Below are positions 722 through 62,441 of a DNA stretch of 64,000 bases, piece by piece. The stretch is from contig NZ_CP061281.1 of the NCBI RefSeq assembly GCF_014621695.1, forward strand, positions 5,642,001 through 5,706,000, given 5' to 3'. Position 1 is the first letter of the stretch; every line of letters begins with the position of its first letter. The DNA is from Streptomyces xanthii (GTDB lineage Bacteria > Actinomycetota > Actinomycetes > Streptomycetales > Streptomycetaceae). The translations under genes were made by a program, and so were the position numbers. Under the pieces are notes generated by a model. It worked only from the letters and a program-made list of their open reading frames with translations, searched no databases and was not told the origin of the DNA.

Positions 722-873
722 GCCGGTGGGGCTTCTCGCGCAGTTCCCCGCGCCCCTGAAATGCAGACCCTTCGGGTCGCATTTCCCCGATGAGCGGGCG
801 CGCCCCTGGAGATGGCGCACGAAGTGCGCATCCCCAGGGGCGCGGGGAACTGCGCGACCAGCCCCCACCGGCC
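722..873. repeat. Branched palindromic intergenic element, copy A (arms 1/1)
   Basis: Two 22-base arms, 737-758 and 835-856, are perfectly complementary, and flanking G/C tracts extend the pairing to about 722-873. Inside the stem are two separate smaller hairpins: 759-784 (GAA-type ATGC...GCAT stem around TTC) and 811-832 (GCGCAC-GAA-GTGCGC). The folded form is therefore a three-way or four-way branched structure. It lies between two convergent genes, filling nearly the whole gap, so a role as bidirectional terminator is plausible. The same arms recur at eight other places in the window. Confidence 0.9.
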
Positions 874-925
874 GGTGGTCGCGACCGATGGGGGCTGGGC
901 AGATGCTGGCGTCGGCGCGTAAGCC

Positions 926-2875
926 TCAGCCGCGGCGGCCGTAGGACGACACGTAACCCGAGGCCGGCGAACCGACACCCGTCACGTCGTCGTAGCCGCG
1001 GACCGCCTTCAGGGACGCGTCCTTACCGAGGCTGCGAACCGAGGTGAGCAGCCCGTCAGCCGCATCGGCCCCGTTCGCGAAGTCGACCCGCGCCACCGCG
1101 AGGCCACCCTTCACCGGCTGGTCGGTGACGTCGTGGTAGACCCGCGACCCGTAGTGCCCGTAGATCACCGGGTTCGCGAACCCGATCGCGTGCCCGCCGC
1201 GCACCTGCTGCGCCAGCGCCTGCACACCCGCGATCACCGGCGCCGCCAGCGACGTACCGCCGATGCGGTACTCGTCGTAGCCGAGCGAACCGTCGGGCAG
1301 GGTCTGCGTCTGCCCCACCAGGAAGCCGGTGTTGGGGTCGGCGACCGCCGCGATGTCCGGCACGACGCGGTTCAGGCCGCCGTTGGCGCGCGCGAGCTCA
1401 CCCGGCACGACACCCTTCTGGTAGAAGGGCTGCGGGACGGTCTTGCTGGTGCCGCCGCCCGCACCGGAGGTGTACGCGCCGGGGAAGTCGGTCCAGCTCT
1501 TGCCGTCGGCCGAGAGGTTGGCCTTGAGCGTGCCCCAGCCGGTCTCCCACTGGTAGGCGTCGCCCTTGCCGACGGCCAGCGAGGTACCGCCGACGGCGGT
1601 CACCCAGGCCGAGTTGGCGGGCGTGTCGACCTGCTTCGTGCCGGTCGACGCGACGTTGTCGCCGTTGTCGCCGGACGAGAAGTAGAAGCCGATGCCCTCG
1701 ACGGCGCCGAGCTGGAACACCTGGTCGTAGGCGGTGGCCAGTTCGGGCGTCTGGTTGGCCTCGATGTCGCCCCAGGAGTTGGAGACGATGTCGGCCAGGT
1801 GCTTGTCGACGATCTTGTGCAGCGAGTCGAGCAGGTCGTCGTCGTAGCAGGATGAGGCGCCCACGTACGTGATGCCCGCCTGCGGCGCCACCGCGTGCAC
1901 GGCCTCGACGTCGAGGGTCTCCTCGCCGTACCAGCCGGCCGCGCCGCACTCCTCGGTCTTCGTGTAGTTCTTCGGCAGGACCTGGTTGAACTGGCCCTTC
2001 GCGTACGGCGCGTCACCGTGCTTGGACGCGTACTCGGCCGCGTCCTTCGCGATGGTCGGCGAGGCGTACGCGTCGGTGATCGCGACCCGCACCCCCTTGC
2101 CGGTGGCCTTGCCGGCGCCGTAGGCGGCACGCAGCTGCTTGCCCGTGTACCCCTTGATCGCGTAGGGCACCTTGCCGCCGTACGCGTCCGGGAGCGTCGT
2201 CGCGATCTTCGAGCCGTAGTACGAGGAGAACGGCCCGGAGTTGCGGAACACGGCGTCCGGCGGCGGCAGCTGGTCCTTCTTCGTCGCCTTGTGCGGGGCG
2301 CTGTCCAGGCCGGTGACCGTGAGCACGGCGCCGTCGAGGGAGGCGGGCACGGAGGCGGCCCTGGACGGGGCCCGGTAGGTGTGACCGCTCTTGGCGAAGT
2401 CGTGCAGCTGGGTGCCGAACGCCTTCTCGGTCGCGGCCACGTCACCCGAAACGGATATGTAGTGCTCCGTGGTGCCGGTGACGGTCAGGCCCGCGGCCTT
2501 CAGCCACGCGGTGACCTCGGCGACCTGCTGCTTCGTCGCGCCGAACCGGTCGCGCGCCTGCTTCGCCGTCAGGTACTTGCCGTACTGCCGCGACTTCGGG
2601 TCGGACACGGCGCGCGCGTACGCGGCCAGGCCCTTCGCGTCGCGTCCCGCGAGGTAGACGCGGGTGTGGACCGTGTTGCCGTCCGGGGTGGCACCGCGGT
2701 CGGCGGAGCCGGTGGCCCACAGCGGCTTGGTGCCCGAGAGCGTGTCCCGGGCACCCGTGTCGGCCTGCGCGGCCGGGGTGGCGAGGGCGAGGGCGCCGGC
2801 CAGCAGCGGCAGTGTCGCCGCGATGCTCAGGCCTGCTCTGGCGCGGGTGCGGCGAGTGCCGCGGATGGATCTCAT
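926..2875 (-). CDS. Secreted S53 family serine-carboxyl peptidase (sedolisin/kumamolisin type)
   Basis: A 649-residue precursor. An N-terminal signal peptide (RTRRTRARAGLS, then a hydrophobic stretch ending TPAAQA) is followed by a Pro-kumamolisin activation domain at about residues 50-190 and a catalytic domain. Visible S53 residues are the Glu and Asp in EETLDVEAV (about 318-322), the oxyanion Asp in SNSWGD (about 368) and the catalytic Ser in GGTSLAAP (about 541). Family members are acid-active extracellular endopeptidases that self-cleave their propeptide. The ATG at 2875 is chosen because a GGGGG ribosome site lies about 8 bases upstream; an ATG at 2902 has none. Three spaced CAAGT repeats lie upstream. 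Confidence 0.93.
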   Translation of the reverse strand: MRSIRGTRRTRARAGLSIAATLPLLAGALALATPAAQADTGARDTLSGTKPLWATGSADRGATPDGNTVHTRVYLAGRDAKGLAAYARAVSDPKSRQYGKYLTAKQARDRFGATKQQVAEVTAWLKAAGLTVTGTTEHYISVSGDVAATEKAFGTQLHDFAKSGHTYRAPSRAASVPASLDGAVLTVTGLDSAPHKATKKDQLPPPDAVFRNSGPFSSYYGSKIATTLPDAYGGKVPYAIKGYTGKQLRAAYGAGKATGKGVRVAITDAYASPTIAKDAAEYASKHGDAPYAKGQFNQVLPKNYTKTEECGAAGWYGEETLDVEAVHAVAPQAGITYVGASSCYDDDLLDSLHKIVDKHLADIVSNSWGDIEANQTPELATAYDQVFQLGAVEGIGFYFSSGDNGDNVASTGTKQVDTPANSAWVTAVGGTSLAVGKGDAYQWETGWGTLKANLSADGKSWTDFPGAYTSGAGGGTSKTVPQPFYQKGVVPGELARANGGLNRVVPDIAAVADPNTGFLVGQTQTLPDGSLGYDEYRIGGTSLAAPVIAGVQALAQQVRGGHAIGFANPVIYGHYGSRVYHDVTDQPVKGGLAVARVDFANGADAADGLLTSVRSLGKDASLKAVRGYDDVTGVGSPASGYVSSYGRRG

Positions 2876-2969
2876 CGTGGAAACCCCCTGGGTGAGGTGC
2901 ACATGTGATGCACACGCAGAGGGCCCCCACTCTCACCACCAACCGTTCACGTGAGGGGAATGGAACGAT

Positions 2970-2995
2970 CAAGTTGGCGTCAAGTCGGGTCAAGT
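2970..2995. promoter_or_regulatory. Three CAAGT iterons upstream of the S53 peptidase
   Basis: CAAGT occurs at 2970-2974, 2981-2985 and 2991-2995, that is at 11- and 10-base intervals, close to one helical turn, about 95-120 bases upstream of the peptidase start. Regularly phased direct repeats of this kind are typical of binding sites for regulators that load as tandem dimers. No regulator is assigned. Confidence 0.35.
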
Positions 2996-2996
2996 A

Positions 2997-3042
2997 CGGT
3001 CAGGGCGAGTCGGTTTGACGCCGTTTTGGCACGCCCTGACCG
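2997..3042 (-). terminator. Inverted repeat, likely terminator of the DUF3105-DUF305 operon
   Basis: The 11-base arms CGGTCAGGGCG (2997-3007) and CGCCCTGACCG (3032-3042) are perfectly complementary around a 24-base loop. The structure begins 17 bases beyond the DUF305 stop codon. There is no clear U tract, which is usual in streptomycetes. Confidence 0.5.
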
Positions 3043-3058
3043 ATCCGGAAGCGCCGGG

Positions 3059-3691
3059 CTACGGCCGGGCGCCGCGCTCCTTCAGCATCCCCGTCATCAG
3101 GTCGATCTCCGACTCCTGAGACTCCACCATGCCGCGCGCAAGGCGCCGTTCGGCCTTCACCTCGCACCGCTTCACACAGCCCTCGGCCATGTGCACCCCG
3201 CCCTTGTGGTGGGCGATCATCAGCCGCAGATAGCCGACCTCGGCGTCCCGGCCGCGCTTCCCGCGCAACGCCTCCAGCTGCGTGTCCGTCGCCATCCCCG
3301 GCATCAGCGCCCCGTCCTCGCCGGCCGGCGCGTCCCCCATCCCCATCCACGTCATCGGCGGATCGGCGGACACCTTGGGCAGCTCCCACAGGTCGAGCCA
3401 GCCGAGCAGCATCCCGCGCTGGTTCGCCTGCGTCTGCGCGATGTCGTAGGCGAGCCGCCGCACGTCCTCGTCGCGCGTCCCGTCCCGCACGATGTACGAC
3501 ATCTCGACGGCCTGCTGATGGTGCACGGCCATGTCCCGGGCGAAGCCCGCGTCAGCGGAGTCCGCGCCCGGCACCGCCACCGAGGCCGGGGCCGGCGGGT
3601 GGTCCCCGTCGGCCACCGCGTACGTGACCGCGCCGGCCGCGACGAGCACCGCCGCCGCGGCCGGGACCAGCCACCGGGTCGCGCTCGTCAC
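3059..3691 (-). CDS. DUF305 domain protein, membrane-anchored, His/Met-rich
   Basis: 210 residues. A single N-terminal hydrophobic segment (WLVPAAAAVLVAAGAVTYAV) suggests export or anchoring. Two copies of the DUF305 signature follow: FARDMAVHHQQAVEMS near residue 50 and RLMIAHHKGGVHMAEGC near residue 170. The His and Met clusters resemble metal-binding sites, and some DUF305 relatives are linked to copper handling, but no substrate can be shown here. The GTG start at 3691 overlaps the stop of the upstream DUF3105 gene (GTGA), so the two are translationally coupled. Streptomycetes commonly keep these two genes together. Confidence 0.88.
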   Translation of the reverse strand: MTSATRWLVPAAAAVLVAAGAVTYAVADGDHPPAPASVAVPGADSADAGFARDMAVHHQQAVEMSYIVRDGTRDEDVRRLAYDIAQTQANQRGMLLGWLDLWELPKVSADPPMTWMGMGDAPAGEDGALMPGMATDTQLEALRGKRGRDAEVGYLRLMIAHHKGGVHMAEGCVKRCEVKAERRLARGMVESQESEIDLMTGMLKERGARP

Positions 3692-4377
3692 CCGCTCAGA
3701 CCACCCGTGCACGCCGCGCCCGGCTCGGGCGTCTGCCGCCCCTGCACGAACCGCTCGAAGAACGCGCCGAGCGCCGGGTCCGAGGCGCTCTTCACCGTCC
3801 GCTGGTGCCCCCAGGCACTGAGCATGATCGGATCCTTCTGGTCCTCGACCGGGCTCATCAGCGAGTACGGGGTCGCCTTCACCTTCTTCTCCAGCGCGGC
3901 GACGTCGGCGTCGGAGGCCTTGCCGTTGTACGTGACCCAGACCGCGCCGTGCTCCAGGGCGTGCACCGCGTTCTCGTTCGGGATCGCCTTGCCGTAGACG
4001 TCGCCGTTGCAGTTCATCCACACCTGGTTGTGGTCCCCGCCGACCGGTGGCTCCATCGGGTACGTGACCTTCTTGGCCACGTGGTTGCGGGCGAGCTTGC
4101 CGCTCCACGTGCCGACGCCGTCCTTGTCGTAGCTGAAGTGCCCGGCGGCCGCCGCGCCCTTCGCGTCGGTCTTCGCGCCTGCCTTCGACGCCGACGCGTC
4201 GTCGTCGCCGCCCTTGCTCACGGCCCAGGCGCCCGCTCCTATCAGGGCGGCCACGACGGCCGTGCTCGCGACGACGACCGAGATCCGGCGGCGCCGCTCG
4301 CGGGCCCGCTCGGCACGCCGCATCTCCTCGATGCGGTCCCGGGCGGACAGAGGGGTCGTGCTCTTGGCGGAACCCAT
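3688..4377 (-). CDS. DUF3105 domain protein with one membrane anchor
   Basis: 229 residues. A charged cytoplasmic N-terminus (DRIEEMRRAERARERRRR) precedes one transmembrane helix at about residues 30-52 and an extracytoplasmic DUF3105 domain. The family signature is visible as YPMEPPVGGDHNQVW, then NAVHALEHGAVWVTYN and LSAWGHQR. The ATG at 4377 has a GAAGGA ribosome site 7 bases upstream, which decides against a longer frame. It is the first gene of a two-gene unit with DUF305. The function is unknown; conserved His residues hint at metal binding. Confidence 0.88.
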   Translation of the reverse strand: MGSAKSTTPLSARDRIEEMRRAERARERRRRISVVVASTAVVAALIGAGAWAVSKGGDDDASASKAGAKTDAKGAAAAGHFSYDKDGVGTWSGKLARNHVAKKVTYPMEPPVGGDHNQVWMNCNGDVYGKAIPNENAVHALEHGAVWVTYNGKASDADVAALEKKVKATPYSLMSPVEDQKDPIMLSAWGHQRTVKSASDPALGAFFERFVQGRQTPEPGAACTGGLSG

Positions 4378-4496
4378 GCAGAGTCCTTCTGTGAAAAGGA
4401 TGAGACGGACGGGTCCGCCGATCGTAGTGGGGAAACAGGGGCCGCGGGAGACGGCTTTTGGCCCAGGTGCGGGCCCCCTGTCGTGGGGCTGTACGG

Positions 4497-4537
4497 CGGC
4501 AGGCACTATGGCCGGAAGGGGACCGGCAGGCACTATG
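4497..4537. repeat. Direct repeat upstream of glnA2
   Basis: The 14-base sequence CGGCAGGCACTATG occurs at 4497-4510 and again at 4524-4537, a period of 27 bases. It sits in the 294-base gap between the divergent DUF3105 and glnA2 genes, so it may be a duplicated promoter element or regulator site. Confidence 0.6.
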
Positions 4538-4573
4538 AGAACCACACCGGCCGATCAGGGACGATCATGGTCG

Positions 4574-4611
4574 GCAACGCGCACGAAACGGGCGTGTGGT
4601 GGGATGGAAGC
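4574..4611 (+). promoter_or_regulatory. Weak GlnR-like half-site array upstream of glnA2
   Basis: GCAAC (4574-4578), GAAAC (4585-4589), GTGGT (4596-4600) and GAAGC (4607-4611) are each separated by exactly six bases, the spacing of GlnR boxes (gTnAc-n6-GaAAc repeated). Only GAAAC matches fully; the others have one or two mismatches. The array ends 60 bases before the glnA2 start. Confidence 0.3.
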
Positions 4612-4671
4612 AGGCCTTTCGACGGCGTTGGAGCAGGCGGCCTGACCAGCAAGGATGGGTGGAAGCGGAAG

Positions 4672-7268: not shown

Positions 7269-7429
7269 CTGACCGCACCGTTCAGGGGGCGGTCGTCGAT
7301 GGTCATGGGTTCACGATCCGACGGGGCGGTGCGGCTCGCAGCGTGTGACGCCCGTACCGCGCACCGCGGCCCGCGCACGCGGGGGCGTGTCCGGGCCGTG
7401 CGGGTGGGGGTGGGGGGTACGGGGATGTG

Positions 7430-7849: not shown

Positions 7850-7891
7850 GGGTGCTGCTTCTCCTGGGAGGTGGTTCAGCCGTGAGGTCGG

Positions 7892-17070: not shown

Positions 17071-17156
17071 TGGTCCGGCTTCGCGCCCACGCGGCGGAGC
17101 CGCACATCGATACAGCCCCGCGCCCCTGAGACGCGCACTTCGTGCGGCATCTCAAC
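17071..17156. repeat. Branched palindromic element, half copy B (type-2 arm only)
   Basis: It carries the type-2 arm (GCGCCC, a GCGGCGGAGCCGC mini-hairpin, an ATACAG linker, then CCCCGCGCCCCTGA) and one inner hairpin of the GCGCAC-TTC-GTGC type, but no closing arm. It lies between glnE and the convergent TetR gene and runs into the TetR stop codon at 17152-17154. Confidence 0.75.
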
Positions 17157-17943: not shown

Positions 17944-19389
17944 ATGTCCGTGACCTCACCGAAGACCGCTCCGCCGAGCGCCGCCCCGGCCGGCCTGCGC
18001 ACCGGCAGCCTCGGCACCTCCGACATCGCCTTCTTCGTCGTCTCCGCAGCCGCCCCGCTCACGGTCATGGCCGGAGTCGCGCCCATCGCCATCGCCCTCG
18101 GCGGCATCGGAGCCCCGGCCGGCTACCTCCTCGCGGGCCTCACGCTCGCCGTCTTCGCCGTCGGCTTCACGACGATGAGCCGGCACGTGAAGGGCGGCGG
18201 CGCCTTCTACTCGTACATCACCCAAGGCCTCGGCCGGCCCGCCGGAATCGGCGCCGCCCTGCTCGCCATGGTCGGCTACAACGGCATGGAGATCGGCGTC
18301 TACGGGCTCCTGGGCAGCGCCACCCAGGACACCGTGCACGCCCTGTTCGGCGCCGACGTCCCCTGGCTGCCCGTGTCCCTCGCCGGGCTCGCCCTCATCT
18401 GGTACGGCGGCTTCCGCTCCATCGACTTCGGCGCGAAACTCCTCGGCGTACTGCTCGTCGCCGAGACCGGCATCCTCGTCCTGCTCGCCGGGGGAGTGCT
18501 CCTCAAGGGCGGCGCCCACGGCCTGTCCGCCGCGTCCTTCGCGCCCGGCAACGTCCTCGTGCCCGGCACCGCCGCCGTGCTGGCCTTCGCGTTCGCCGCG
18601 TTCACCGGCTTCGAGTCGACCGTCATCTACCGCCGCGAGGCCCGCGACCCCGACCGCACCGTGCCGCGCGCCACCTACATCGCCGTCGCCTTCCTCGGCC
18701 TCTTCTACGCCTTCACCGTCTGGATCGCCGTCCAGGCCTTCGGCGACGCCGACGTGGTCAAGGCCGCCGGAAGCGACCCGGCGAACCTCTTCTTCACCGC
18801 CATCACCACCTTCGTCGGAGGCTGGGCGGCCGACCTGATGCACGTCCTCATCGTCACCAGCGTCATCGCCTCCCTCCTCGCCTTCCACAACGCCATCAAC
18901 CGCTACGGCCTGGCCCTGGCCGACGAAGGAGTCCTTCCGCGCTCCTTCGCCCGCGTCCACACCAAGCACCGCTCCCCGTACGTCGCCGGGCTCGCCCAGA
19001 CCGCACTCGGCGCGGTCGTCGTCCTCGCGTTCTGGGCGGCCGGCGCCGACCCGTACAACCAGCTGCTGCTCTGGGTGAACACGCCCGGCATGCTCGGCCT
19101 CATGGCCCTCCAGCTCCTCGCGGCGCTCGCGGTCCCGTTCTTCTTCCGGCGGATCTCCCACAGCGAGGGCCGCGCCCGCACGTTCTGGGCCCCGGCCGTG
19201 GCGACGGTCCTGCTCGGAGCGGCGATCGTCCTGGTCATCGGCCACATCGACCTCTTCACGGGAGCGTCCCCGCTCGCCAACTGGATCATGGTCGCGGTGG
19301 CCCCCGCGGTCTTCCTCCTCGGCTTCCCCCTGGCCCACCGCCTCAAGACCCGCCGCCCCGAGGTCTACGAGGCCTTCGGCAGCAAGTAG
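17944..19389 (+). CDS. APC superfamily amino acid/amine permease
   Basis: 481 residues with about twelve transmembrane helices. The N-terminal segment LGTSDIAFFVVSAAAPLTVM and GGGAFYSYITQGLGRPAG are typical of APC transporters, as is GFESTVIYRREARDPDRTVPRA at the cytoplasmic end of helix 6. It is expected to import an amino acid or related amine by proton or sodium coupling. It is followed after 35 bases by the amidohydrolase gene, suggesting uptake and hydrolysis of one compound, and is divergent from a TetR gene. Confidence 0.9.
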   Translation: MSVTSPKTAPPSAAPAGLRTGSLGTSDIAFFVVSAAAPLTVMAGVAPIAIALGGIGAPAGYLLAGLTLAVFAVGFTTMSRHVKGGGAFYSYITQGLGRPAGIGAALLAMVGYNGMEIGVYGLLGSATQDTVHALFGADVPWLPVSLAGLALIWYGGFRSIDFGAKLLGVLLVAETGILVLLAGGVLLKGGAHGLSAASFAPGNVLVPGTAAVLAFAFAAFTGFESTVIYRREARDPDRTVPRATYIAVAFLGLFYAFTVWIAVQAFGDADVVKAAGSDPANLFFTAITTFVGGWAADLMHVLIVTSVIASLLAFHNAINRYGLALADEGVLPRSFARVHTKHRSPYVAGLAQTALGAVVVLAFWAAGADPYNQLLLWVNTPGMLGLMALQLLAALAVPFFFRRISHSEGRARTFWAPAVATVLLGAAIVLVIGHIDLFTGASPLANWIMVAVAPAVFLLGFPLAHRLKTRRPEVYEAFGSK

Positions 19390-21039: not shown

Positions 21040-21185
21040 CCGGTGGGGGCTGGTCGCGCAGTTCCCCGCGCCCCTGATGAGGCTGCGCCTCATCGGGGAG
21101 ATGCCACCCGAAGGGTGTGCATCTCAGGGGCGCGGGGCTGTGTCGATGTGCGGCTCCGCCGCGTGGGCGCGAGAAGCCCCACCGG
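21040..21185. repeat. Branched palindromic element, copy C (arms 1/2)
   Basis: A type-1 left arm (GTCGCGCAGTTCCCCGCG) pairs through GGGGCGCGGGG with a type-2 right arm that carries an extra GCGGCTCCGCCGC mini-hairpin. Two inner hairpins are present: ATGAGGCTGCGCCTCAT, and a GATGC...GCATC stem around ACCCGAAGGGT. It fills the gap between the convergent amidohydrolase and PAP2 genes. Confidence 0.88.
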
Positions 21186-23262: not shown

Positions 23263-23409
23263 CCCGGTGGGGGCTGGTCGCGCAGTTCCCCGCGCCCCTG
23301 AAATGCAGACCCTTCGGGTCGCATTTCCCTGATGAGGCGCAGCCTCATCCGGGGCGCGGGGCTGTATCGATCAGCGGCTCCGCCGCGGGGCGCGAGAAGC
23401 CCCACCGGG
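23263..23409. repeat. Branched palindromic element, copy D (arms 1/2), in a divergent region
   Basis: A type-1 left arm and a type-2 right arm (with the CGGCTCCGCCG mini-hairpin) enclose an AAATGC...GCATTT hairpin nearly identical to that of copy A, and a GATGAGGCGCAGCCTCATC hairpin. Unlike the other copies it lies between divergent genes (malR-like and CHMI), about 90 bases from the first start and 120 from the second, and occupies most of the 352-base gap. Apart from it I see no other gene there. Confidence 0.88.
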
Positions 23410-38636: not shown

Positions 38637-38651
38637 TCCGTGCCCTCCCTG

Positions 38652-38681
38652 ACCGGCGCCGAGTTCCGACTCGGCGCCGGT
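38652..38681 (+). terminator. Terminator of the small conserved gene
   Basis: ACCGGCGCCGAG and CTCGGCGCCGGT form a perfect 12-bp stem with a 6-base loop, 15 bases after the stop codon and followed by TTCTTCG. Confidence 0.8.
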
Positions 38682-38701
38682 TCTTCGTATGCCGGGTGCG
38701 G

Positions 38702-38887
38702 GCCGGTGGGGGCTGGTCGCGCCCCGCGGCGGAGCCGCTGATGGACACAGCCCCGCGCCCCTGAAGGCATGCGGCTTCGCCGGGCCTTCCCCGACAGCAG
38801 GCGCCCCGCGTCTTGATCGGGGAAATGCGGCGCGTAGCGCCATGCATTTCAGGGGCGCGGGGAACTGCGCGACCGGCCCCCACCGGC
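38702..38887. repeat. Branched palindromic element, copy E (arms 2/1)
   Basis: A type-2 left arm (with the GCGGCGGAGCCGC mini-hairpin) and a type-1 right arm (GCGCGGGGAACTGCGCG) enclose two inner hairpins: AAGGC...GCCTT, and AAATGC...GCATTT around GCGCGTAGCGC. It lies between convergent genes, immediately after an ordinary terminator, so it is not needed for termination on that side. Confidence 0.88.
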
Positions 38888-38912
38888 CCGCAGACGCAGC
38901 ACCCGCCACCCC

Positions 38913-40097
38913 CTAGGCCGCCCCCAGCTCCCGCTCCAACGGAGTGCGAAAGCGCGGCGTCACCCGGACCCCGCCCAACCAGGACCCGAGCCGCCCCGCC
39001 TCCGAGGCGACAGCCTCCCGCGCCTCCCGCCCCCCGAAGCCATCGAGCAGCCGCCACACCACCTCGCCCCCGTCCCGCTGCCCCCAACCCCCCACGATCC
39101 GCCCGCCCCACCACACCGTCGGCCCGATGTTCCCGCTCCGGTCGAACAAGGCCCCCCGCACCTCGTCCGGGCAGTACCACTCCCGCTCCTGCCACCCCAT
39201 GGCCGTAGGATCCAGCCCCGGCAGGAACGCGGCGCAGGGCGCGACCTCCCCCGGCCCCTCCACCGCCTCCGGCATGACGAAACCGGCCCCGCCCCCGTCC
39301 AGGGACACGGCCACCGCCCCGACGGCCGCGAGGGCCCGCCGCACCTCCGTCACCTTCCACCCCGTCCACCACTTGAGGTCCGCCTCCGTCGCCGGCCCGC
39401 ACACCGCCAGCCAGCGCCCCAGCAACTCCGCCTGCGCCCCGGCGACCGGCAGCTCCGCGTGCGGCGGCGCCACCTCCCAGCGGAACTGCGAGGACGTCCA
39501 GGACCCGAGCGGCCGCCCCCGCACGACCCGCCCCTCGACCCCGAGCACCCGCATCAACCGCGACGACACGGTCTGCAGCGCCTCGTAGCTCTTGCCGCGC
39601 CCGTACGTGAACTGCTCCCTCAGGCGCGGCTCGTCCTCGCAGAGCTCGTTCACCGTCGCCTGCCCGCGCCGCGCGAGCGCGGCCAGCGCCGACTCCTCGA
39701 CCCCCTCCAGCCACCCCGGGGTGAGCCGCCCGTCGCTGCCCGCCGCCATCTCCTTGAGCAGCCCCGCCCGCGCCTTCGCCGCGACGGCCAGCCCGGTCGA
39801 CGCGTGCACCGTCGCGGCCAGCTCCGTGGGAAACACGAACACCGTGTGCCGCATCCCGTGCATCCGCACCAGCGTCCGGTCCTCGTAGAGGGCCCGCTCC
39901 ACGTCCGCGACCGTCCCGCCCGGATCCGCGAGCCGCGCCCCGACCGCCAGATACACCGTCGCCGGATCCGTCCCGTGCAGCGCCACGAGCGACCGCGCGA
40001 CGTCCTCGGCGCGCTCCGCCCGCGCGGCGGGGGACAGGCGATGGGCGAGCACGAGCCGGGCCCGCCGCTCCTCGGTACCGATGTGCCGTGTCGTCAT
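38913..40097 (-). CDS. Winged-helix DNA-binding protein, HTH_42 (AlkX/YcaQ-like)
   Basis: 394 residues, full-length for the HTH_42 (PF06224) family. Characteristic stretches are RLVLAHRLSP at the start, RSLVALHGTDPATVYL, VRMHGMRHTVFVFP, and AFLPGLDPTAMGWQEREWY near the C-terminus. Two characterised branches of the superfamily are DNA glycosylases that unhook inter-strand crosslinks; streptomycetes keep several, some guarding against self-made alkylators. Whether this one is a glycosylase cannot be told. The ATG at 40097 has AGGA 9 bases upstream. Confidence 0.87.
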   Translation of the reverse strand: MTTRHIGTEERRARLVLAHRLSPAARAERAEDVARSLVALHGTDPATVYLAVGARLADPGGTVADVERALYEDRTLVRMHGMRHTVFVFPTELAATVHASTGLAVAAKARAGLLKEMAAGSDGRLTPGWLEGVEESALAALARRGQATVNELCEDEPRLREQFTYGRGKSYEALQTVSSRLMRVLGVEGRVVRGRPLGSWTSSQFRWEVAPPHAELPVAGAQAELLGRWLAVCGPATEADLKWWTGWKVTEVRRALAAVGAVAVSLDGGGAGFVMPEAVEGPGEVAPCAAFLPGLDPTAMGWQEREWYCPDEVRGALFDRSGNIGPTVWWGGRIVGGWGQRDGGEVVWRLLDGFGGREAREAVASEAGRLGSWLGGVRVTPRFRTPLERELGAA

Positions 40098-40217
40098 GGG
40101 GCCATCCTGCCCGCACGTCACCTGTTCGGCCCCCATGGCATGCGGGTACCCGCCGTCCGGCCGTTGACTGGGTCCGAGCCGTACCGGCGGGCGGACGAGC
40201 AGAGGTGGGTGGTCGGC

Positions 40218-40673
40218 ATGACGGCGACACGATGCGCGGCGCGGGCCACGGGCGCGGCCCTGCTCGCGGCGGCCCTGGCCGTCGGCGCGACGGCCTGCTC
40301 GGACAACGACACCAGCCCCTCCGACGTCGCCTCCAAGGGCGCCGACATCCTGGCGTCCGCGACCGCCGAGGCCCAGAAGAAGCTCGACGAGTTCAAGAAC
40401 GGCGTCGACGCGAAGAAGGACGTGGAACTCGGCGACGTGTCCAAGAAGGACGGCCGCGCCACGGTCCCCGTGACCGTGAAGAACACCGCCGACGCCAAGA
40501 AGTCGTACCTCGTCCTCGTCACCTTCCGGGACTCCGGCGGCAACCGCCTCGACGCCGTCGCCGTCCAGGTGAACGACGTCGGCGCCGGCGCGTCGAAGAA
40601 GGCGACCGCCCGCAGCCACCGCTCCCTCGGCGGCGACGTCACCGCCGAACTCGACCGCGCCCTGAGCCACTGA
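40218..40673 (+). CDS. Lipoprotein with FxLYD-like domain
   Basis: 151 residues. A signal peptide ends in the lipobox GATAC (about residues 24-28). A helical, Lys-rich segment (ILASATAEAQKKLDEFKNGV) precedes a small beta-sandwich (RATVPVTVKNTADAKKSYLVLVTF ... VAVQVNDVGAGASKKATARS) like the FxLYD domains of other actinobacterial lipoproteins. The function is unknown. It is followed after 12 bases by the DUF2252 gene, probably in one transcript. Confidence 0.82.
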   Translation: MTATRCAARATGAALLAAALAVGATACSDNDTSPSDVASKGADILASATAEAQKKLDEFKNGVDAKKDVELGDVSKKDGRATVPVTVKNTADAKKSYLVLVTFRDSGGNRLDAVAVQVNDVGAGASKKATARSHRSLGGDVTAELDRALSH

Positions 40674-40685
40674 CCCCCGGCGGCC

Positions 40686-42032
40686 ATGACCAGTCCCGCC
40701 GAACGCGCAGCCCAGGGCAAGCGCGCCCGCAAACACCTCGCCCGCTCCGCGCACGGCCCCTGGATCCCCGCCGCGGACCGCCCCGACCCGGTCGTCGTCC
40801 TCGAACGGCAGGGCGCCGACCGCCTCCCCGACCTGCTCCCCATCCGCTACGGCCGGATGTCCGCGAGCCCCTTCGCCTTCTATCGCGGCGCCGCAGCCGT
40901 CATGGCCGGCGACCTCGCCGCGATACCCCACACCGGCCTCAGCGTCCAACTCTGCGGCGACGCCCACCTGCTGAACTTCGGCCTGTTCGCCTCACCCGAG
41001 CGCGCCCTGCTCTTCGACCTCAACGACTTCGACGAGACGTACCCCGGCCCCTTCGAATGGGACGTCAAACGCCTCGCCGCCTCCGTCGTCGTCGCCGCCC
41101 GCGACAACGGCCACTCGGACAAACAGGCCCACCGCGCCGCCCTCGCCGGCACCCAGGCCTACCGCACCAACCTGCGCCGCCTCGCGGGCCTCGGCGAACT
41201 CGCCGTCTGGTACGAGCGGATCGACGCGCAGGACCTGCTCCCGCTGATCCGCTCCGCCCGCGACCGGCGCCGCGTCGAGCACACCCTCGCCCAGGCCACC
41301 CGCCGCACCAGCCTCCACGCCCTCGGCAAGCTCACCGAGACCACCCCCGACGGCCGCCGCCGCATCGTCCACGACCCGCCGCTGCTCCAGCCGGCGGGCG
41401 TCACCGACGCCGCCGCGATCCGCAAGATGTTCGGCGACTACCGCTCCACGCTCACCGAGGACCGGCGCCGCCTCCTGGACCGCTACCGCTTCGTGGACGC
41501 CGCCCGCAAGGTCGTCGGCATCGGCAGCGTCGGCACCCGCTGCTTCATCGTGCTCCTCGCGGGCCGCGACGCCGATGACCCGCTCTTCCTCCAGATCAAG
41601 GAGGCGACCCGCTCCGTCGTCGAGGAGCACACCCCGTACCACGGCCCCTATCTCCACCCGGGCCACCGCGTCGTCGCAGGCCAGCGCCTGCTCCAGGCGG
41701 CGAGCGACATCTTCCTCGGCTGGATGACCGGCCCCCAGGGCCGCTCCTTCTACTGGCGCCAGCTGCGCGACATGAAGGGCTCCGCGGACGTCGGCGTCAT
41801 GCGCCCCGAGGACCTGCTCGCCTACGCCCGCCTGTGCGGCACCGCCCTCTCCCGCGCCCACGCCCGCTCCGGCGACCGCATCGCCATCGCCGCGTACCTC
41901 GGCGGCTCCGACACCTTCGACCGCGCCGTGGCCGCCTTCGCCCTCCACTACGCCGACCAGACCCTCCGTGACCACGCCACCCTCCTGGACGCGATCTCCT
42001 CCGGAGTCCTCACCGCCGCCCCCGGCATCTGA
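40686..42032 (+). CDS. DUF2252 family, kinase-like protein
   Basis: 448 residues, full-length DUF2252. The segments SVQLCGDAHLLNFGLF and LLFDLNDFDETYPGPFEWD resemble the catalytic loop (HGD-x-H-x-x-N) and metal-binding Asp of aminoglycoside-phosphotransferase-like kinases, and MSASPFAFYRGAA matches the family N-terminus. The substrate is unknown. It follows a small lipoprotein gene by 12 bases and converges on glnA across a bidirectional terminator. Confidence 0.88.
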   Translation: MTSPAERAAQGKRARKHLARSAHGPWIPAADRPDPVVVLERQGADRLPDLLPIRYGRMSASPFAFYRGAAAVMAGDLAAIPHTGLSVQLCGDAHLLNFGLFASPERALLFDLNDFDETYPGPFEWDVKRLAASVVVAARDNGHSDKQAHRAALAGTQAYRTNLRRLAGLGELAVWYERIDAQDLLPLIRSARDRRRVEHTLAQATRRTSLHALGKLTETTPDGRRRIVHDPPLLQPAGVTDAAAIRKMFGDYRSTLTEDRRRLLDRYRFVDAARKVVGIGSVGTRCFIVLLAGRDADDPLFLQIKEATRSVVEEHTPYHGPYLHPGHRVVAGQRLLQAASDIFLGWMTGPQGRSFYWRQLRDMKGSADVGVMRPEDLLAYARLCGTALSRAHARSGDRIAIAAYLGGSDTFDRAVAAFALHYADQTLRDHATLLDAISSGVLTAAPGI

Positions 42033-44196: not shown

Positions 44197-44350
44197 GCCG
44201 GTGGGGCTTCTCGCGCAGTTCCCCGCGCCCCTGGAAGGCATGCGGCTTCGCCGCGCCTTCCCCAGATGAACGGCGCCCTGCACCTCGATCGGGGAAATGC
44301 GCCCGAAGGGCATGCATTTCAGGGGCGCGGGGAACTGCGCGACCAGCCAC
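44197..44350. repeat. Branched palindromic element, copy F (arms 1/1)
   Basis: Type-1 arms on both sides (CGCGCAGTTCCCCGCG and its complement) enclose a GAAGGC...GCCTTC hairpin (loop region GCGGCTTCGCCGC) and an AAATGC...GCATTT hairpin around GCCCGAAGGGC. It lies between convergent RDD and DUF4191 genes. The remaining bases to 44448 show nothing. Confidence 0.88.
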
Positions 44351-53908: not shown

Positions 53909-53934
53909 CGGACGTAGCCTAACCGGTCCACTGC

Positions 53935-55689: not shown

Positions 55690-55730
55690 CCCGGAGCGGG
55701 TTCGGGTTTCCAGGTCTGACCCGGAGCGGG
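55682..55730. repeat. Short direct repeat spanning the SDR stop codon
   Basis: The 19-base sequence AGGTCTGACCCGGAGCGGG occurs at 55682-55700 and 55712-55730. The first copy contains the TGA of the second SDR gene, so the second copy is a spare 3' end, a likely local duplication. Confidence 0.8.
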
Positions 55731-55820
55731 GCGCCGCGGCCGGCCACGGGAGTGTGGTCGGGCGCGGCGCCCCGCCGTAGGGGCCGAGCATTGCCGCCGA
55801 CCGCTGCGCCGTCGTGGTTG

Positions 55821-55868
55821 CTCGCGCAGTTCCCCGCGCCCCTGAAGGGCGCACTCCGTGCGCGCCGG
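55821..55868. repeat. Branched palindromic element, half copy G (type-1 arm)
   Basis: One type-1 arm (CTCGCGCAGTTCCCCGCGCC) followed by a single GGGCGCAC-TCC-GTGCGC hairpin; no closing arm is seen before the MarP stop at 55905. It lies between the convergent SDR and MarP-like genes. Confidence 0.75.
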
Positions 55869-55904
55869 GGGTGTGTCGGTCGTGGTCCGGAGTTGGTGGT
55901 GGGG

Positions 55905-57107: not shown

Positions 57108-57210
57108 ATCGGTGATAAACGCCCGGAGCGGCGGGGGCGGTTCCTCCGTTCGGCCCACGTGTGGCCGACCGCACAGGCCGGAACACCGGAACGGGCCGAG
57201 AGTGGAAGAC

Positions 57211-57969: not shown

Positions 57970-57983
57970 TCGGCCGACCGCGG

Positions 57984-58211
57984 CCCGGTGGGGGCTGGTC
58001 GCGCAGTTCCCCGCGCCCCTGAGATGCGCACTTCGTGCGCCCCAGGGGCCCGGTGGTCGCGCCCCGCGGCGGAGTCGCTGATCGGGCACAGCCCCGCGCC
58101 CCTGAGATGCGCACTTCGTGCGCGATCTCCATAGGGGCGGTGCCTCATCGGGGAAATGCGACGCGAAGCGTCTGCATTTCAGGGGCGCGGGGAACTGCGC
58201 GACCAGCCCCC
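57984..58211. repeat. Branched palindromic element, compound copy H (arms 1, 2 / 1)
   Basis: Two left arms occur in series, type 1 (57990-58021 region) then type 2 (58053-58105 region), each followed by the same GATGCGCAC-TTC-GTGCGC hairpin, and one type-1 right arm closes the structure at 58181-58211 after an AAATGC...GCATTT hairpin. The copy looks like a partial duplication or recombination of two elements. It fills the 291-base gap between the convergent amidase and beta-helix lipoprotein genes. Confidence 0.85.
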
Positions 58212-58260
58212 ACAAACCCGCAGCCGCCCGACGAGGGCACCCCGCAGACGAACCGGCGGA

Positions 58261-59583
58261 TCAAGCCGGCCGGAGCGTTCCGCCCCCGGGGAGGCGGAAC
58301 TTGCGGCCGCCGAGATCGGGACTGGCCGCACGGTCGTACGTGACGTCCGACCCGTTCCCGACCAGCACGTCGGACACCTTCACCCCGTCCCGCAGCTCCA
58401 GCTCCTCCACCTTGGAGTCCCCGTCCACGGACCACTTCGTGCCGCGCCCGAGCGACAGGGACGCCCCCGAGACCCGCCCCGTCAGCTTCGACGCCCCTTC
58501 CAGCCGCACCGACGCCGACCCGTCGGGCACGAGCACGTCCCCGCGCAGCTTCTCGTCCCGCGCCGAGAACGTCACGGACCCGCCGTCCTTCACCCGCAGC
58601 AGCGCCCCGTCGTCCGTCGTCAGATGCGCCCGACCGCGCAGCCGCACGTCCGCGACGCTCTCCCGCACGGTGAACAGGTCACCCTCGGCCGCCTCGATCG
58701 ACCCGCCGGTCATCTCGAACGAGGTCTCGCCCGAGCCCCGCAGCAGCACCCCGCCCGCGGCCGCCGAAGAGCGCACGTTCTTCAGGGTCAGCACCCCGCC
58801 CGGCTCCAGCGTGAACGCCTCCGAGTTCGCCACGGTGAACAGCGTGCCCGACAGCGCCACCGTGCCCGCCGTCTGCACGCCCGGCGACCCGCAGCCCGCC
58901 GACGTCATCGTGCCACCGGACACCGTGACCTCCCCGCCGCCCGGCCCCGCCACGACCGGCGCCGACTGCGAGCCCGCCGTCCGCAGCTCCGTGTACCGCA
59001 GTTCGAGCCGGCCCCCGTGCGCGGCCGTGACGCCGCGCGCGGACCCGCCCGTCGCCGTGATCCGGTTGGCGCTCATGGTGGCCGAGCTGTCCTCGCCCGT
59101 CACGAACACGCCGGTCGACCCGCGCCCCGCCGTGTTCATCTCCCCGCCGGACAGCGTCAGCCCGCTCCCGTCGCGCACCAGCACCGCCGCGTTGAGCCCC
59201 CGGTCGCCCGAGGCCGCCGCCGAGGTCGTCGCGCCGCTCTTGCGGACCCCGGAGTCCCGCGTCTTCAGCGTCCCCCCGCCGGACACCAGCACGGCGGACC
59301 GGTCCGCGGTCCGCGCCCCGAACGGCTTGCCGCGCGGCGCCGTCGCCATCTCGCTGTCCACCGTGTAGACGGAGGTCCCCGCCGTGCCCGTACCGGCGTC
59401 CACGCCCGAGGGCAGCGGATCCGTCGCGCACCGCGCCCCGCTCGCCGTGGCCGCGGGAGTGGCCGCGGGCGGCGGCGTCGCCGTGCCGTCGTCGGAGCAC
59501 GCGGCCAGCGCGAACGGCAGCAGCAGCACGGAAGCGGTGACCGCGACGCGCCGCGGTCGAGGCGCGAGTCCCTGGTAAGTCAT
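58261..59583 (-). CDS. Lipoprotein with right-handed beta-helix repeats
   Basis: 440 residues. A signal peptide ends in the lipobox LAAC (about residue 30), followed by a Thr/Pro/Ala linker and a long series of 20-24-residue turns rich in Gly, Ser and Val (LLVSGGGTLKTRDSGVRKSG-like, VTVSGGTMTSAG, GVLTLKNVRSSAA), characteristic of parallel beta-helices such as adhesins or polysaccharide-binding proteins. No catalytic residue is recognised. It starts 18 bases after the SpoIIE-type phosphatase gene and is probably co-transcribed with it. Confidence 0.82.
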   Translation of the reverse strand: MTYQGLAPRPRRVAVTASVLLLPFALAACSDDGTATPPPAATPAATASGARCATDPLPSGVDAGTGTAGTSVYTVDSEMATAPRGKPFGARTADRSAVLVSGGGTLKTRDSGVRKSGATTSAAASGDRGLNAAVLVRDGSGLTLSGGEMNTAGRGSTGVFVTGEDSSATMSANRITATGGSARGVTAAHGGRLELRYTELRTAGSQSAPVVAGPGGGEVTVSGGTMTSAGCGSPGVQTAGTVALSGTLFTVANSEAFTLEPGGVLTLKNVRSSAAAGGVLLRGSGETSFEMTGGSIEAAEGDLFTVRESVADVRLRGRAHLTTDDGALLRVKDGGSVTFSARDEKLRGDVLVPDGSASVRLEGASKLTGRVSGASLSLGRGTKWSVDGDSKVEELELRDGVKVSDVLVGNGSDVTYDRAASPDLGGRKFRLPGGGTLRPA

Positions 59584-59601
59584 GGGCCCTACGTTCACAT
59601 T

Positions 59602-60723
59602 TCACGCCGCGTCCGGCACATCCGGGTCCTCCGGAGCGAACACCAACAGCGTCAGATCGTCCCGCACCGTCCCCGCGAACCGCACCACGTCCCGCCACAC
59701 CGCGTCCGTCAGCTCGCCCGGATCCTCGTGGTCCGCGTCCATCAGCCCCGGCAGCCGGGCGGCCAGCGGATAGAACTCGCCCGCCCCGTTGCGCGCCTCC
59801 GTCACCCCGTCGGTCAGCGCCACCAGCCGGTCACCGGCCTCCAGCGGCACCGTCAGCACCTCCGGCGGCGCGACGCCCGCGACCCCGAGACCCAGCGGCG
59901 CCCCGGCCGGCACCGGCAGCTCCGTCACCCGCCCCTTCCGCAGCAGCAGCGGCGGCGGATGGCCGCAGCTGATCACCCGTACGAAGGAGGAGTCGTCCGG
60001 GAACTCGAAGAGGACCGCCGTCGCGAACAGCTCCGTGTGCTCATCCGGCCCCGCGTCCACCACGAGCCGCCGGTCGAGCCGCGCCGCGACCCCCACCAGC
60101 TCCCGCCGGTCCAGCACCGCCTCCCGGAACGCGCCGAGCAGCCCCGCCACCGTGCCCACCGCCGACAGACCGTGCCCCTGCACATCGCCGACCACCGCCC
60201 GCACCCCGCTCGGCCCGCGCCGCACGTCGAAGAAGTCCCCGCCCACCAGCGCCCCGCGCTGCGCCGCTCGGTACAGACCCGCGCAGCGCACCGAACCGAC
60301 CTTCTCCGGCAGCGGCGGAAGGACCGCGAACTGGGCCGCCTCCGCCACCGTACGGACCGTCACCAGCTGCTCGTCGCGCCGGCTGCGCACCCAGGAGATG
60401 ACCACGCTCAGCAGCGCCACGAACAGCACTGTCACCACGTCGCTGTTGCCGGGCCGCCCGAGATTCGACGCCGGCACCGCCAGCAGCAGCACCACGAGCC
60501 CGCCGATCAACGCCGTCGCGGCCGACCCGTAGGAGAGCGAGGCCAGCGGAGGGATCGCCGCCAGCAGGAAACCCAGCTCGATGCGGTCTTCCGTGAACAG
60601 CTGCACCAGACAGAGGAGCAGCAGGAGCACCCACGGCAGCACCCGCACCCAGCGCGGCGGCGGCGCCCCGCGCAGCCACGTGCGCTCCTGCCGGTCCCGG
60701 CGGCGCGCGACGGGCCAGTCCAT
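59602..60723 (-). CDS. PP2C/SpoIIE-type serine/threonine phosphatase, membrane-bound
   Basis: 373 residues. Three to four transmembrane helices (VLPWVLLLLLCLVQLF and following, residues 28-110) precede a SpoIIE-like PP2C domain with the metal-binding Asp motifs GGDFFDV, VVGDVQGHG, ALTDGVTEAR and DDLTLLVF. Such phosphatases act on anti-anti-sigma factors or other phosphoserine proteins; streptomycetes have dozens. No kinase or antisigma partner gene is near. AAGGGAG is 9 bases before the ATG. Confidence 0.92.
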   Translation of the reverse strand: MDWPVARRRDRQERTWLRGAPPPRWVRVLPWVLLLLLCLVQLFTEDRIELGFLLAAIPPLASLSYGSAATALIGGLVVLLLAVPASNLGRPGNSDVVTVLFVALLSVVISWVRSRRDEQLVTVRTVAEAAQFAVLPPLPEKVGSVRCAGLYRAAQRGALVGGDFFDVRRGPSGVRAVVGDVQGHGLSAVGTVAGLLGAFREAVLDRRELVGVAARLDRRLVVDAGPDEHTELFATAVLFEFPDDSSFVRVISCGHPPPLLLRKGRVTELPVPAGAPLGLGVAGVAPPEVLTVPLEAGDRLVALTDGVTEARNGAGEFYPLAARLPGLMDADHEDPGELTDAVWRDVVRFAGTVRDDLTLLVFAPEDPDVPDAA

Positions 60724-60811
60724 ACCGGGGCTCCCTTCGCGGCGGACGGGCGGCGCGTGGACCCGACGCCCTGCTACGAGCCTGCTACGAGTCGGGCACC
60801 GCCGCACGCCG

Positions 60812-61312
60812 TCACGGCAGCAGCGAGCGTCCCATCAGCACGTCGTCCACGTACTCCCCGGCCAGCAGGAACTCCTCCGGCAGCACCCCTTCGACGACGA
60901 AGCCCTCCGCCTCGTACAGCTTCCGGGCCGGGGTGTTGTGCCCCAGCACCCGCAGGGTGAGCCGGCGGGCTCCCTGCCGCCGCGCCTCCCCGACCGCCGC
61001 CCGCAGCAGCAGCCGGCCGACGCCCCGGCCGCGCGCCGACTCGTCGACGGCGAGGCCCTGGATCTGGCGGACGTGCGCGTTCGCGTCCAGCGGCGTCGGA
61101 AAACCGACCCGGACGTACCCGACGAGCCGGCCGCCGAGCTCGGCCACCAGGTGGTCGCGCGGCCCGAAACGCTCGGTGAAGAAGGGCTGGTACGGGGGCT
61201 GGTCGCGTGGCTTGACCGCGTGCAAGGTCGACCACGTCGCCCGGTCGAGGCGCCCCAGCGCCTCCTCGTCCTCGGGCGCGGCGACACGTATGTGGGGCCC
61301 TGGATCTGACAT
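60812..61312 (-). CDS. GNAT family N-acetyltransferase
   Basis: 166 residues from the ATG at 61312. The acetyl-CoA binding motif A is seen in QIQGLAVDESARGRGVGRLLLRAAVGEARRQG (R/Q-x-x-G-x-G/A), followed by LRVLGHNTPARKLYEAEGFVVEG. The substrate is not predictable. It is divergent from the epimerase gene, with only 32 bases between the starts, so the two promoters overlap or one messenger is leaderless. Confidence 0.9.
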   Translation of the reverse strand: MSDPGPHIRVAAPEDEEALGRLDRATWSTLHAVKPRDQPPYQPFFTERFGPRDHLVAELGGRLVGYVRVGFPTPLDANAHVRQIQGLAVDESARGRGVGRLLLRAAVGEARRQGARRLTLRVLGHNTPARKLYEAEGFVVEGVLPEEFLLAGEYVDDVLMGRSLLP

Positions 61313-61344
61313 GCGGCTCACTGTACGACCGGCAGGATGGAGCC

Positions 61345-62232
61345 ATGACACGAATTGCGGTGGCGGGCGCCTCCGGGCTCATCGGCTCGGCCCTCGTCCG
61401 CTCCCTGACCGCCGACGGACACGACGTGGTGCGGCTGGTGCGGCGCGCCCCGCGCGCGGACGGCGAGGTGCGCTGGGACCCCCGCCGCATGCGCGTCGAC
61501 ACGGCGGGCCTCGAAGGCTGCGAGGCGATCGCGAACTTCGCGGCGGCCGGGGTCGGCGACCGGCGCTGGACCGCCGCGTACAAGCGCGAGCTGCACGACA
61601 GCCGGGTCCTCGGCACGACCGCGCTCGCCGAGGCCGCGGCCTCGCTCACGACGCCGCCGCGCGTGTTCCTCAACGGCAGCGCCGTCGGCTACTACGGCGA
61701 CACCGGCAGCCGCGTCGTCGACGAGTCCGCGCCCGCGGGGGAGGGGTTCCTGCCGTCCCTGTGCGTCGAGTGGGAGGCGGCCACGGCGGCCGCGCACCAG
61801 GCCGGGATCCGTACGGTGCTCGCGCGGACGGGGCTCGTCGTGGCCCGGCGCGGGGGTGCGTGGGGGAGGCTCTTCCCGCTGTTCCGGGCGGGGCTCGGCG
61901 GGCGGCTCGGGGACGGCCGGCAGTACTGGTCGTTCATCGCACTCGACGACCACGTCGCGGCCTTGCGGTTCCTCTTGGAGCAGGAGTCCTTGTCCGGGCC
62001 GGTGAATCTCACGGCTCCGGACCCGGCGACGAACCGGGAGGTGACGTCCACGATGGCCCGCGTCCTGCACCGGCCCGCCGTCCTCAACGTCCCCGAGTTC
62101 GCGCTCCGCGCGGTGCTCGGCGAAATGGCGGGCGATGTCCTCGGCTCCACCCGCGCGGTCCCGACGCGGCTCCTGGAGTCGGGCTTCACCTTCAAGCACC
62201 CGACGCTGCAGTCGGCCATCGAGGCTGCCTGA
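61345..62232 (+). CDS. TIGR01777 family NAD-dependent epimerase-like protein
   Basis: 295 residues. An extended-SDR N-terminus VAGASGLIGSALVRSL (residues 6-21) is followed by the TIGR01777/SDR39U1 signatures AAAGVGDRRWTAAYKRELHDSRV, FLNGSAVGYYGDTG, TVLARTGLVV, and the C-terminal DUF1731 segment (PEFALRAVLGEMAGDVLGSTRAVPTRLLESGF). The reaction is unknown; the E. coli homologue is YfcH. It is transcribed alone and converges on DUF4240 across a palindromic repeat. Confidence 0.92.
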   Translation: MTRIAVAGASGLIGSALVRSLTADGHDVVRLVRRAPRADGEVRWDPRRMRVDTAGLEGCEAIANFAAAGVGDRRWTAAYKRELHDSRVLGTTALAEAAASLTTPPRVFLNGSAVGYYGDTGSRVVDESAPAGEGFLPSLCVEWEAATAAAHQAGIRTVLARTGLVVARRGGAWGRLFPLFRAGLGGRLGDGRQYWSFIALDDHVAALRFLLEQESLSGPVNLTAPDPATNREVTSTMARVLHRPAVLNVPEFALRAVLGEMAGDVLGSTRAVPTRLLESGFTFKHPTLQSAIEAA

Positions 62233-62262
62233 ACACGTCTCGTCGCCGGGTGCGAGTGCGTC

Positions 62263-62441
62263 GTGGCTGGTCGCGCCCCGCGGCGGAGCCGCTGATGGAC
62301 ACAGTCCCGCGCCCCTGGAAGGCAGCGGCTTCGCCGCGCCTTCCCCAGATGAAAGGCCCCCCGCGTCTTGATCGGGGAAATGCGGCGCGAAGCGCCTGCA
62401 TTTCAGGGGCGCGGGGAACTGCGCGAGAAGCCCCACCGGCC
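62263..62441. repeat. Branched palindromic element, copy I (arms 2/1)
   Basis: A type-2 left arm (CGCCCCGCGGCGGAGCCGC) and a type-1 right arm (GGGGAACTGCGCG) enclose an AAGGC...GCCTT hairpin and an AAATGC...GCATTT hairpin around GGCGCGAAGCGCC. The order and sequence of parts match copy E at 38702-38887. It lies between convergent genes. Confidence 0.88.

Follow-up and report, generated by a model that had tools for sequence, protein, structure and literature searches.

The stretch of Streptomyces xanthii DNA analysed here, a window of 64,000 nucleotides (nt) spanning positions 5,642,001–5,706,000 on the main contig of a genome of 8.35 Mb, carries nine copies of a dispersed palindromic element. 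We read this element as a Streptomyces counterpart of the REPIN and BIME repeats: a non-coding unit that acts at the DNA level behind stop codons, without a RAYT (a transposase associated with repetitive extragenic palindromes, REPs). We give this reading a probability of roughly 55%. The strongest evidence for it is the pairing of covarying hairpins that obey a loop rule with a nearly invariant core; a function at gene ends is only proposed. An earlier sequence-only reading had described the copies as a REP/MITE-like family (MITE, miniature inverted-repeat transposable element) of branched palindromes in convergent gaps, acting as bidirectional terminators, 3′-end stabilisers or protein-binding sites. 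The dispersed REP/MITE-like character was right, and the family proves much larger than the window suggested; the terminator role, a RAYT, a convergent preference counted per gene 3′ end and compensation in the outer arms were not borne out.

Half-units, core and fold

Searching the genome with a 17-nt core at up to one mismatch returned 418 matches (219 forward and 199 reverse), against 1 and 0 for the reversed pattern used as control. Further analysis relied on an own-genome sample of 120 stretches of 20 kb along the chromosome plus the window, 2.46 Mb in total, in which 173 of 177 core matches are intergenic. Read from outside to inside, a half-unit consists of a variable arm, then ~21 nt of nearly invariant core, then a small variable hairpin. 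Arms are of two types, a and b, and in type b an extra hairpin whose loop is GGA takes the place of AGTT; lower case denotes forward arms and capitals the same types inverted. A full element comprises two inverted half-units facing inward (a..A), and the aA arrangement is the commonest, with 21 cases in convergent and 17 in tandem gaps of the sample. Lone half-units and multi-unit arrays are also present. A single outward-facing pair (A then a) flanks a long palindrome near position 18733 of stretch L125, and a second GC-rich repeat, around GCCGGGCGCCGGGCCGACGCCCCCGGAGGGGGCGGG, occurs in long intergenic stretches beside AA or AAA arrays of half-units in the same genome (L044, L057, L060 and L100). 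An apparent plus-strand polarity at 2.05–3.26 Mb, where only plus matches were among those listed, was discarded, as the sampled stretches of that region carry both strands.

To gauge the constancy of the core, a 25-mer consensus was searched at up to five mismatches, the limit of the search. Of 155 hits, 150 are intergenic, and these fall into mismatch classes 0 to 5 as 40, 68, 31, 3, 4 and 4, so that 139 have two mismatches or fewer. Most mismatches lie in the two columns at either edge (64 and 14 at the start, 12 and 52 at the end), while none of the inner 21 columns holds more than three. Five shuffled-consensus controls gave 0 to 3 hits each, all with four or five mismatches. Halves belonging to doublets (84) are slightly better conserved than singlets (66; p = 0.036). 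The hairpins that adjoin this core vary widely between copies.

Minimum folding energies were compared with those of 100 dinucleotide shuffles per copy, under both DNA and RNA parameters. The seven near-complete window copies have z-scores of −5.0 to −11.1 (DNA) and −4.7 to −10.8 (RNA), and the folds of the two half copies, at 17071–17156 (z = −0.9) and 55821–55868 (z = −2.1), do not clearly exceed their shuffles. In the predicted structure a full element can fold as a cloverleaf, with an outer stem, two side hairpins and an apical stem. That the fold is branched, as first described from the window, is supported by the two side hairpins: left and right never share a class in 39 full elements, against 12.0 cases expected with shuffled partners (39 of 59 pairs were used, the 20 with short interiors being excluded). 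Exactly one AAATGC-type hairpin is carried by 35 of the 39. Simple descent from one asymmetric ancestor may account for these never-matching pairs, and we use them only as evidence of branching.

Compensatory change, the other expected mark of a structured element, is strong in the hairpin stems but not in the outer arms. Among 52 distinct hairpin tips, selected by a CTNCG loop, 81 double changes were counted, compared with 31.4 after shuffling and at most 22 when the alignment was slid, and 90% of cells pair. In the outer stem the core portion hardly varies, and beyond the core the 38 aA elements combine their arm types as if at random (TGGT/TGGT 12, TTCT/TGGT 8, TTCT/TTCT 1), which led us to reject matching outer arms. 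A nearly invariant core beside hairpins that vary widely and covary makes a recent burst alone an unlikely origin; something appears to hold the core.

The hairpin loops follow a simple rule. A triloop stem of at least 4 bp is present in 142 of 182 half-units, and 126 of these read C(TNC)G, in 119 cases, or the complementary C(GNA)G, in 7, with 16 fitting neither. TTC is the commonest loop (95); the middle base alone is changed in 24 (TGC 13, TCC 8, TAC 3), the first or third alone in none. Folding with DNA parameters placed C(GNA)G or C(TNC)G in 110 of 174 element loops; among the controls, convergent gaps lacking an element had 12 of 259 and tandem gaps 10 of 702 (for the latter 400 of 739 regions were used); with RNA parameters the corresponding counts are 101 of 178, 10 of 260 and 8 of 718. 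The rule was checked in other species as well. In genome G059, 17 of 18 hairpins obey it (8 of 9 distinct ones) and none of 20 controls does, and in full pairs from named relatives, taken from 80 loci that encode the best-matching named relatives of a single window protein (all Streptomyces), 7 of 7 loops in five elements fit. Unusual stability in DNA is ascribed to GNA triloops in PMC6479982, which cites Yoshizawa 1997 and Hirao 1994. An RNA explanation through UNCG tetraloops was rejected: when closed by C-G, such a loop requires C-G as its next pair as well, which is impossible in 91 of 137 C-G-closed hairpins, although the other 46 could form one. The triloop rule would thus be a signature at the DNA level.

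Placement, window copies and changes between species

Elements are not scattered at random between genes but favour gene 3′ ends. In the sample they occupy 49 of the 395 gaps between convergent genes, 41 of the 1386 tandem gaps and 8 of the 388 divergent ones; the genes were predicted with a home-made codon-score caller that misplaced at least one gene pair, so these classes are somewhat noisy. Because the window was itself picked for its copies, we also counted without it (42 of 382, 40 of 1354 and 7 of 376, respectively). Around the 80 named-relative loci the counts are 14 of 240 convergent, 25 of 661 tandem and 0 of 229 divergent gaps. The difference between convergent and divergent gaps is significant (odds ratio 6.7), that between tandem and divergent gaps, taken per gap in the own genome, is not (p = 0.39). 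Most tandem gaps are short, and rates were therefore also expressed per gene 3′ end: 49 of 790 ends in convergent gaps carry an element, compared with 41 of 1386 in all tandem gaps, 40 of 777 in those of at least 50 nt and 40 of 631 in those of at least 80 nt, the last cut-off being our choice. With that cut-off the convergent preference is gone, and an exclusively convergent placement is ruled out genome-wide. Placement tracks gene 3′ ends and not convergent gaps as such. At an equal length of 200–300 nt, 20 of 33 convergent gaps are filled but only 15 of 126 tandem ones, since those convergent gaps that are empty have a low median length, 30.5 nt. The median distance from stop codon to element is 37 nt in convergent and 44 nt in tandem gaps, with 83 nt to the next start. 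A general preference of stem-loops or inverted repeats for gene 3′ ends has been reported (PMC1590033, PMC6060812), as has overlap of convergent transcripts in Streptomyces (PMC3765725).

All nine places named in the window hold a copy, and eight of the nine lie between converging genes. The best resolved is copy A (722–873), a full aA element in a convergent gap (DNA z = −11.1). Its left core lies at 740–756 on the plus strand (GCAGTTCCCCGCGCCCC) and its right core, inverted, at 837–853 on the minus strand. The left hairpin (759–784, plus) reads AAATGC-A-GACCC(TTC)GGGTC-GCATTT, with a bulged A and a TTC triloop that is GAA on the opposite strand; the right one (811–832, plus) has the core stem GCGCAC(GAA)GTGCGC with a GAA triloop. 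Copy B (17071–17156, plus) is a half-unit with a type b arm, its extra hairpin being GCGGC(GGA)GCCGC, downstream of a glnE-like gene. Copies C (21040–21185; z = −7.7) and D (23263–23409; z = −7.0) are full elements with arms a and B, and copy D is the sole copy in a divergent gap, flanked by a LacI-type gene on the minus strand and a CHMI-like gene on the plus strand. Copy E (38702–38887; z = −7.7), with arms b and A and a terminator-like hairpin read from the sequence directly upstream, lies in a gap (38637–38943) that the gene caller had as tandem; a Pfam match identifies an AlkZ-like glycosylase gene at 38913–40967 on the minus strand, which makes the gap convergent. Copy F (44197–44350; z = −8.8) is a full aA element, copy G (55821–55868, plus) a single a half-unit and copy H (57984–58211; z = −11.0) a composite a-b-A element. 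Copy I (62263–62441; z = −5.0), a full element with arms b and A, occupies the convergent gap between an epimerase gene and a DUF4240 gene. Rfam gave no match in the window; the best of six weak scores, for copy I, was 25.1 bits against a gathering score of 100.

An end motif, GCCGTAG or GCCGCAG (GCCGYAG), lies 51–53 nt outward of the core at 18 of 151 element ends, for example at the right end of copy I; at copy G, GCCGTAG precedes the core by 52 nt. Counting out to 110 nt, 28 ends carry the motif, and at 4 of them it coincides with the flanking gene's stop codon.

The claim that every convergent gap longer than about 150 nt holds a copy stands for the credible gaps of the window, where the only empty one of at least 150 nt (7273–7429) depends on a doubtful open reading frame, but fails more widely: 45 of 85 such gaps in the sample are filled.

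Comparison of orthologous gaps reveals both empty and filled states. The epimerase/DUF4240 gap, read from the DUF4240 side, holds aB in S. xanthii (235 nt), aA in S. longispororuber (L182; 254 nt) and aaaA in strain PsTaAH-137 (L181; 386 nt). It is convergent and element-free in five other species (L183, L184, L185, L190 and L191), where it measures 12, 18, 42, 49 and 93 nt, and in a sixth (L228) the pair is not convergent and is separated by 138 nt with no element. Three more empty cases (L196, L208 and L220) appear when any match, not only the best, is counted. An amidase gap read in the same direction contains aBA in S. xanthii and a in L182 but is empty and 14 nt long in L181, and a third gap has A in S. 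xanthii and B in L182. What looks like a single tandem site, just behind an ordinary terminator whose sequence served to identify it, has type b in three species (L203, L221 and L257) and type a in one (L233). The different forms in filled gaps, alongside empty ones, indicate that elements are gained, lost or rebuilt in place.

Range within the genus and relation to known repeats

Across 150 Streptomyces genomes, 122 have at least one core match at up to one mismatch, 44 of them only one to three, near the control level, and 28 have none. At least 20 matches are found in 57 genomes, with a maximum of 1133 in G108. Other species keep the core less strictly: exact matches make up 385 of 1133 in G108, 751 of 882 in G059 and 641 of 794 in G127. 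The commonest core of G108 probably differs by one base. G059 has eight stretches in which tandem arrays of half-units, often in 57-nt steps, flank a hairpin-rich centre on one side or both, all of the half-units facing inward; some element centres there (L261–L268) contain short tandem repeats of a GC-rich motif between two hairpins. Outside the genus, 15 genomes of the order's other genera gave no core match, and 10 of 268 genomes sampled from the class gave 11 scattered hits, against 5 control hits, six among the matches listed having two mismatches each; both samples come from genera outside the family, which leaves the edge of the range only loosely placed. The phages searched gave no match, and plasmid matches occur at 16 places in 12 Streptomyces records.

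The closest analogue is the REPIN. As described by Bertels and Rainey (2011; PMC3116915), REPINs are inverted doublets of a short conserved word, extragenic and present in hundreds of copies, accompanied by decayed singlets and ordered tandem clusters, with a predicted hairpin or clover fold as single-stranded DNA and with doublets better conserved. Our family shares this short, extragenic, high-copy word, the excess of inverted doublets over singlets (84 against 66), the ordered clusters, the predicted clover fold and the slightly better conservation of doublets. It differs in its two extra side hairpins with GNA triloops, in having few decayed copies within the searched range, and in two defining features. 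The GTAG- or GTGG-headed imperfect palindrome that marks REPs is missing, since GCCGYAG stands at only a small share of ends and the core is not so headed, and no Y1 transposase was found in the S. xanthii genome. The family is thus REPIN-like in its working yet lacks two features that define membership, the RAYT and the GTAG head. BIMEs, which together with the GTAG head of REPs and RAYTs are treated in PMC2817692, likewise form mosaics of inverted palindromic units between genes and are candidate protein-binding sites; compared with E. coli BIME-1 and BIME-2, the units here face inward around a hairpin centre instead of alternating, have another sequence and have no known binder. With bacterial MITEs the family shares short length, lack of coding capacity, terminal inverted repeats and intergenic location, but no parent transposon was recognised, and no target-site duplication was seen by eye in the compared gaps, which have probably diverged too far to reveal one. 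Streptomyces intrinsic and I-shaped terminators (PMC8269248) are also stable hairpins behind stop codons; the present elements are much longer, branched, repeated and nearly invariant in their core, and have no strand preference. Abundant short RNAs at palindromes, many in 3′ untranslated regions, have been reported from S. coelicolor and E. coli, the available part of that report naming no Streptomyces family (PMC4681348). The word Streptomyces did not occur in a term search of the RepRanger paper (PMC12306157). No description of the family appeared among the matches listed in the open-access literature, and as far as that search reaches it is new.

Competing explanations and meaning

A genuine REP/REPIN family, mobilised by a RAYT or some other Y1 transposase, would fit the architecture and copy number and could draw on the GCCGYAG end motif. 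The search for a RAYT-like gene that the sequence-only reading suggested did not find PF01797 (Y1_Tnp) in the S. xanthii genome, whereas the same search was positive in 5 of 14 control genomes. In the genus survey Y1_Tnp is present in 47 of 150 genomes, and at least 20 copies are found in 27 of these 47 against 30 of the other 103 (p = 0.001, raw). Copy number, however, climbs with genome size (Spearman 0.44), and with genome size in the model the Y1 association across the 150 genomes is gone (p = 0.30). Because genome size accounts for the raw association, and because 8 of the 14 genomes with at least 200 copies, including the two richest, lack Y1, we rejected RAYT as the mobiliser and consider this the least probable of the explanations, very improbable indeed. 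A bidirectional terminator or 3′-end stabiliser acting as RNA between convergent genes has more in its favour: the folds are very stable, the elements sit close behind stop codons, and many structured transcript ends without a U tract are reported for S. clavuligerus (PMC8269248). Yet half-units in tandem gaps show no orientation preference (37 sense and 32 antisense in the own genome, 17 and 13 in relatives), and the first 45 nt past stop codons are no less structured ahead of an element but slightly richer (p = 0.056 and 0.044), to which the element arms may contribute. The absence of strand preference and of any lack of other hairpins at element-bearing ends argues against an RNA terminator as the main role. 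Nor is there a U tract beyond control: TTTT occurs in the 25 nt flanking 2 of 196 element ends against 3 of 268 control positions, and TTTT or AAAA occurs within 3 of 98 elements. A loop rule that fits DNA triloops and largely precludes UNCG tetraloops, and an invariant 21-nt core that termination does not need, point the same way. The terminator and stabiliser claims are unsupported, and we judge such a role unlikely.

The nearly invariant core favours reading the element as a protein-binding site, and the rival with most weight is a stable site for a conserved Streptomyces protein (a nucleoid protein, a topoisomerase or similar) at operon ends, maintained by selection on each copy and not by mobility. 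A core that stays fixed while hairpins and arms vary, that recurs exactly or with one change in other species and whose orientation does not matter speaks for such a site, and binding of IHF and gyrase has been reported for the BIMEs of E. coli (PMC2817692). Against it stand the many genomes with no match or a near-control number, gap occupancy that differs among species, and the shifted core of the richest genome; on balance we hold it to be improbable, by a smaller margin of doubt than attaches to termination. Alternatively, hairpin-driven slippage, template switching and gene conversion might multiply and perfect palindromes as a neutral by-product, with no dedicated enzyme or use. Template switching can produce paired changes without selection, and the tandem arrays at 57-bp steps in one relative fit such a process. 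A specific agent is suggested instead by the spread to hundreds of sites, by the sharp boundaries of the core and by its near-identity in other species, and we hold a purely neutral origin to be highly unlikely.

Several observations weigh against a mobile, REPIN/BIME-like element. No mobiliser was identified, and no autonomous parent element was recognised by position among 13 element pairs within 4 kb of each other with one to four genes between them. Few relics are decayed (11 of 150 hits have three to five mismatches, the most that the search admitted), which is odd for a purely selfish repeat, and the difference between doublets and singlets weakens to p = 0.069 when hits are limited to three mismatches. 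The outer arm types of left and right halves are unmatched in the 38 aA elements, and once single halves are included only 11 of 62 loops from named relatives fit the triloop rule, against 14 of 211 controls. The gap comparisons are between species, not near-identical genomes, and the absence of visible target-site duplications concerns gaps too diverged to be a reliable guide. Mobile DNA in Streptomyces usually concentrates in the chromosome arms, and in the sampled arms (L031–L043 and L143–L150) core counts are low, 5 in 420 kb against 172 in 2,044 kb, or about seven times fewer per base within limits drawn after the counts were seen.

With these points counted, we still favour a REPIN/BIME-like element acting at the DNA level. 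A trans-acting enzyme would copy or grow the elements by reading the core together with the hairpins folded in single-stranded or cruciform DNA; the copies would persist mainly behind stop codons, where insertion would be least harmful, and there a DNA-binding protein may use them. A more specific version we put forward only tentatively, as a conjecture more apt to fail than to hold: a genus-wide protein would recognise the 21-nt core and the GNA mini-hairpins and, without Y1, disperse the cloverleaf as folded single-stranded DNA or cruciform to gene ends by the hundreds, its binding serving as chromosomal punctuation at operon ends.

Streptomyces is much studied, yet a family with up to 1133 core matches (at most one mismatch) in one genome is undescribed among the matches listed in the open-access literature. 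Here is a REPIN-like population that lacks the enzyme held to drive REPINs, so that what else can spread and keep such elements becomes directly testable, and the family can serve at once as a probe for a possible DNA-binding protein common to the genus.

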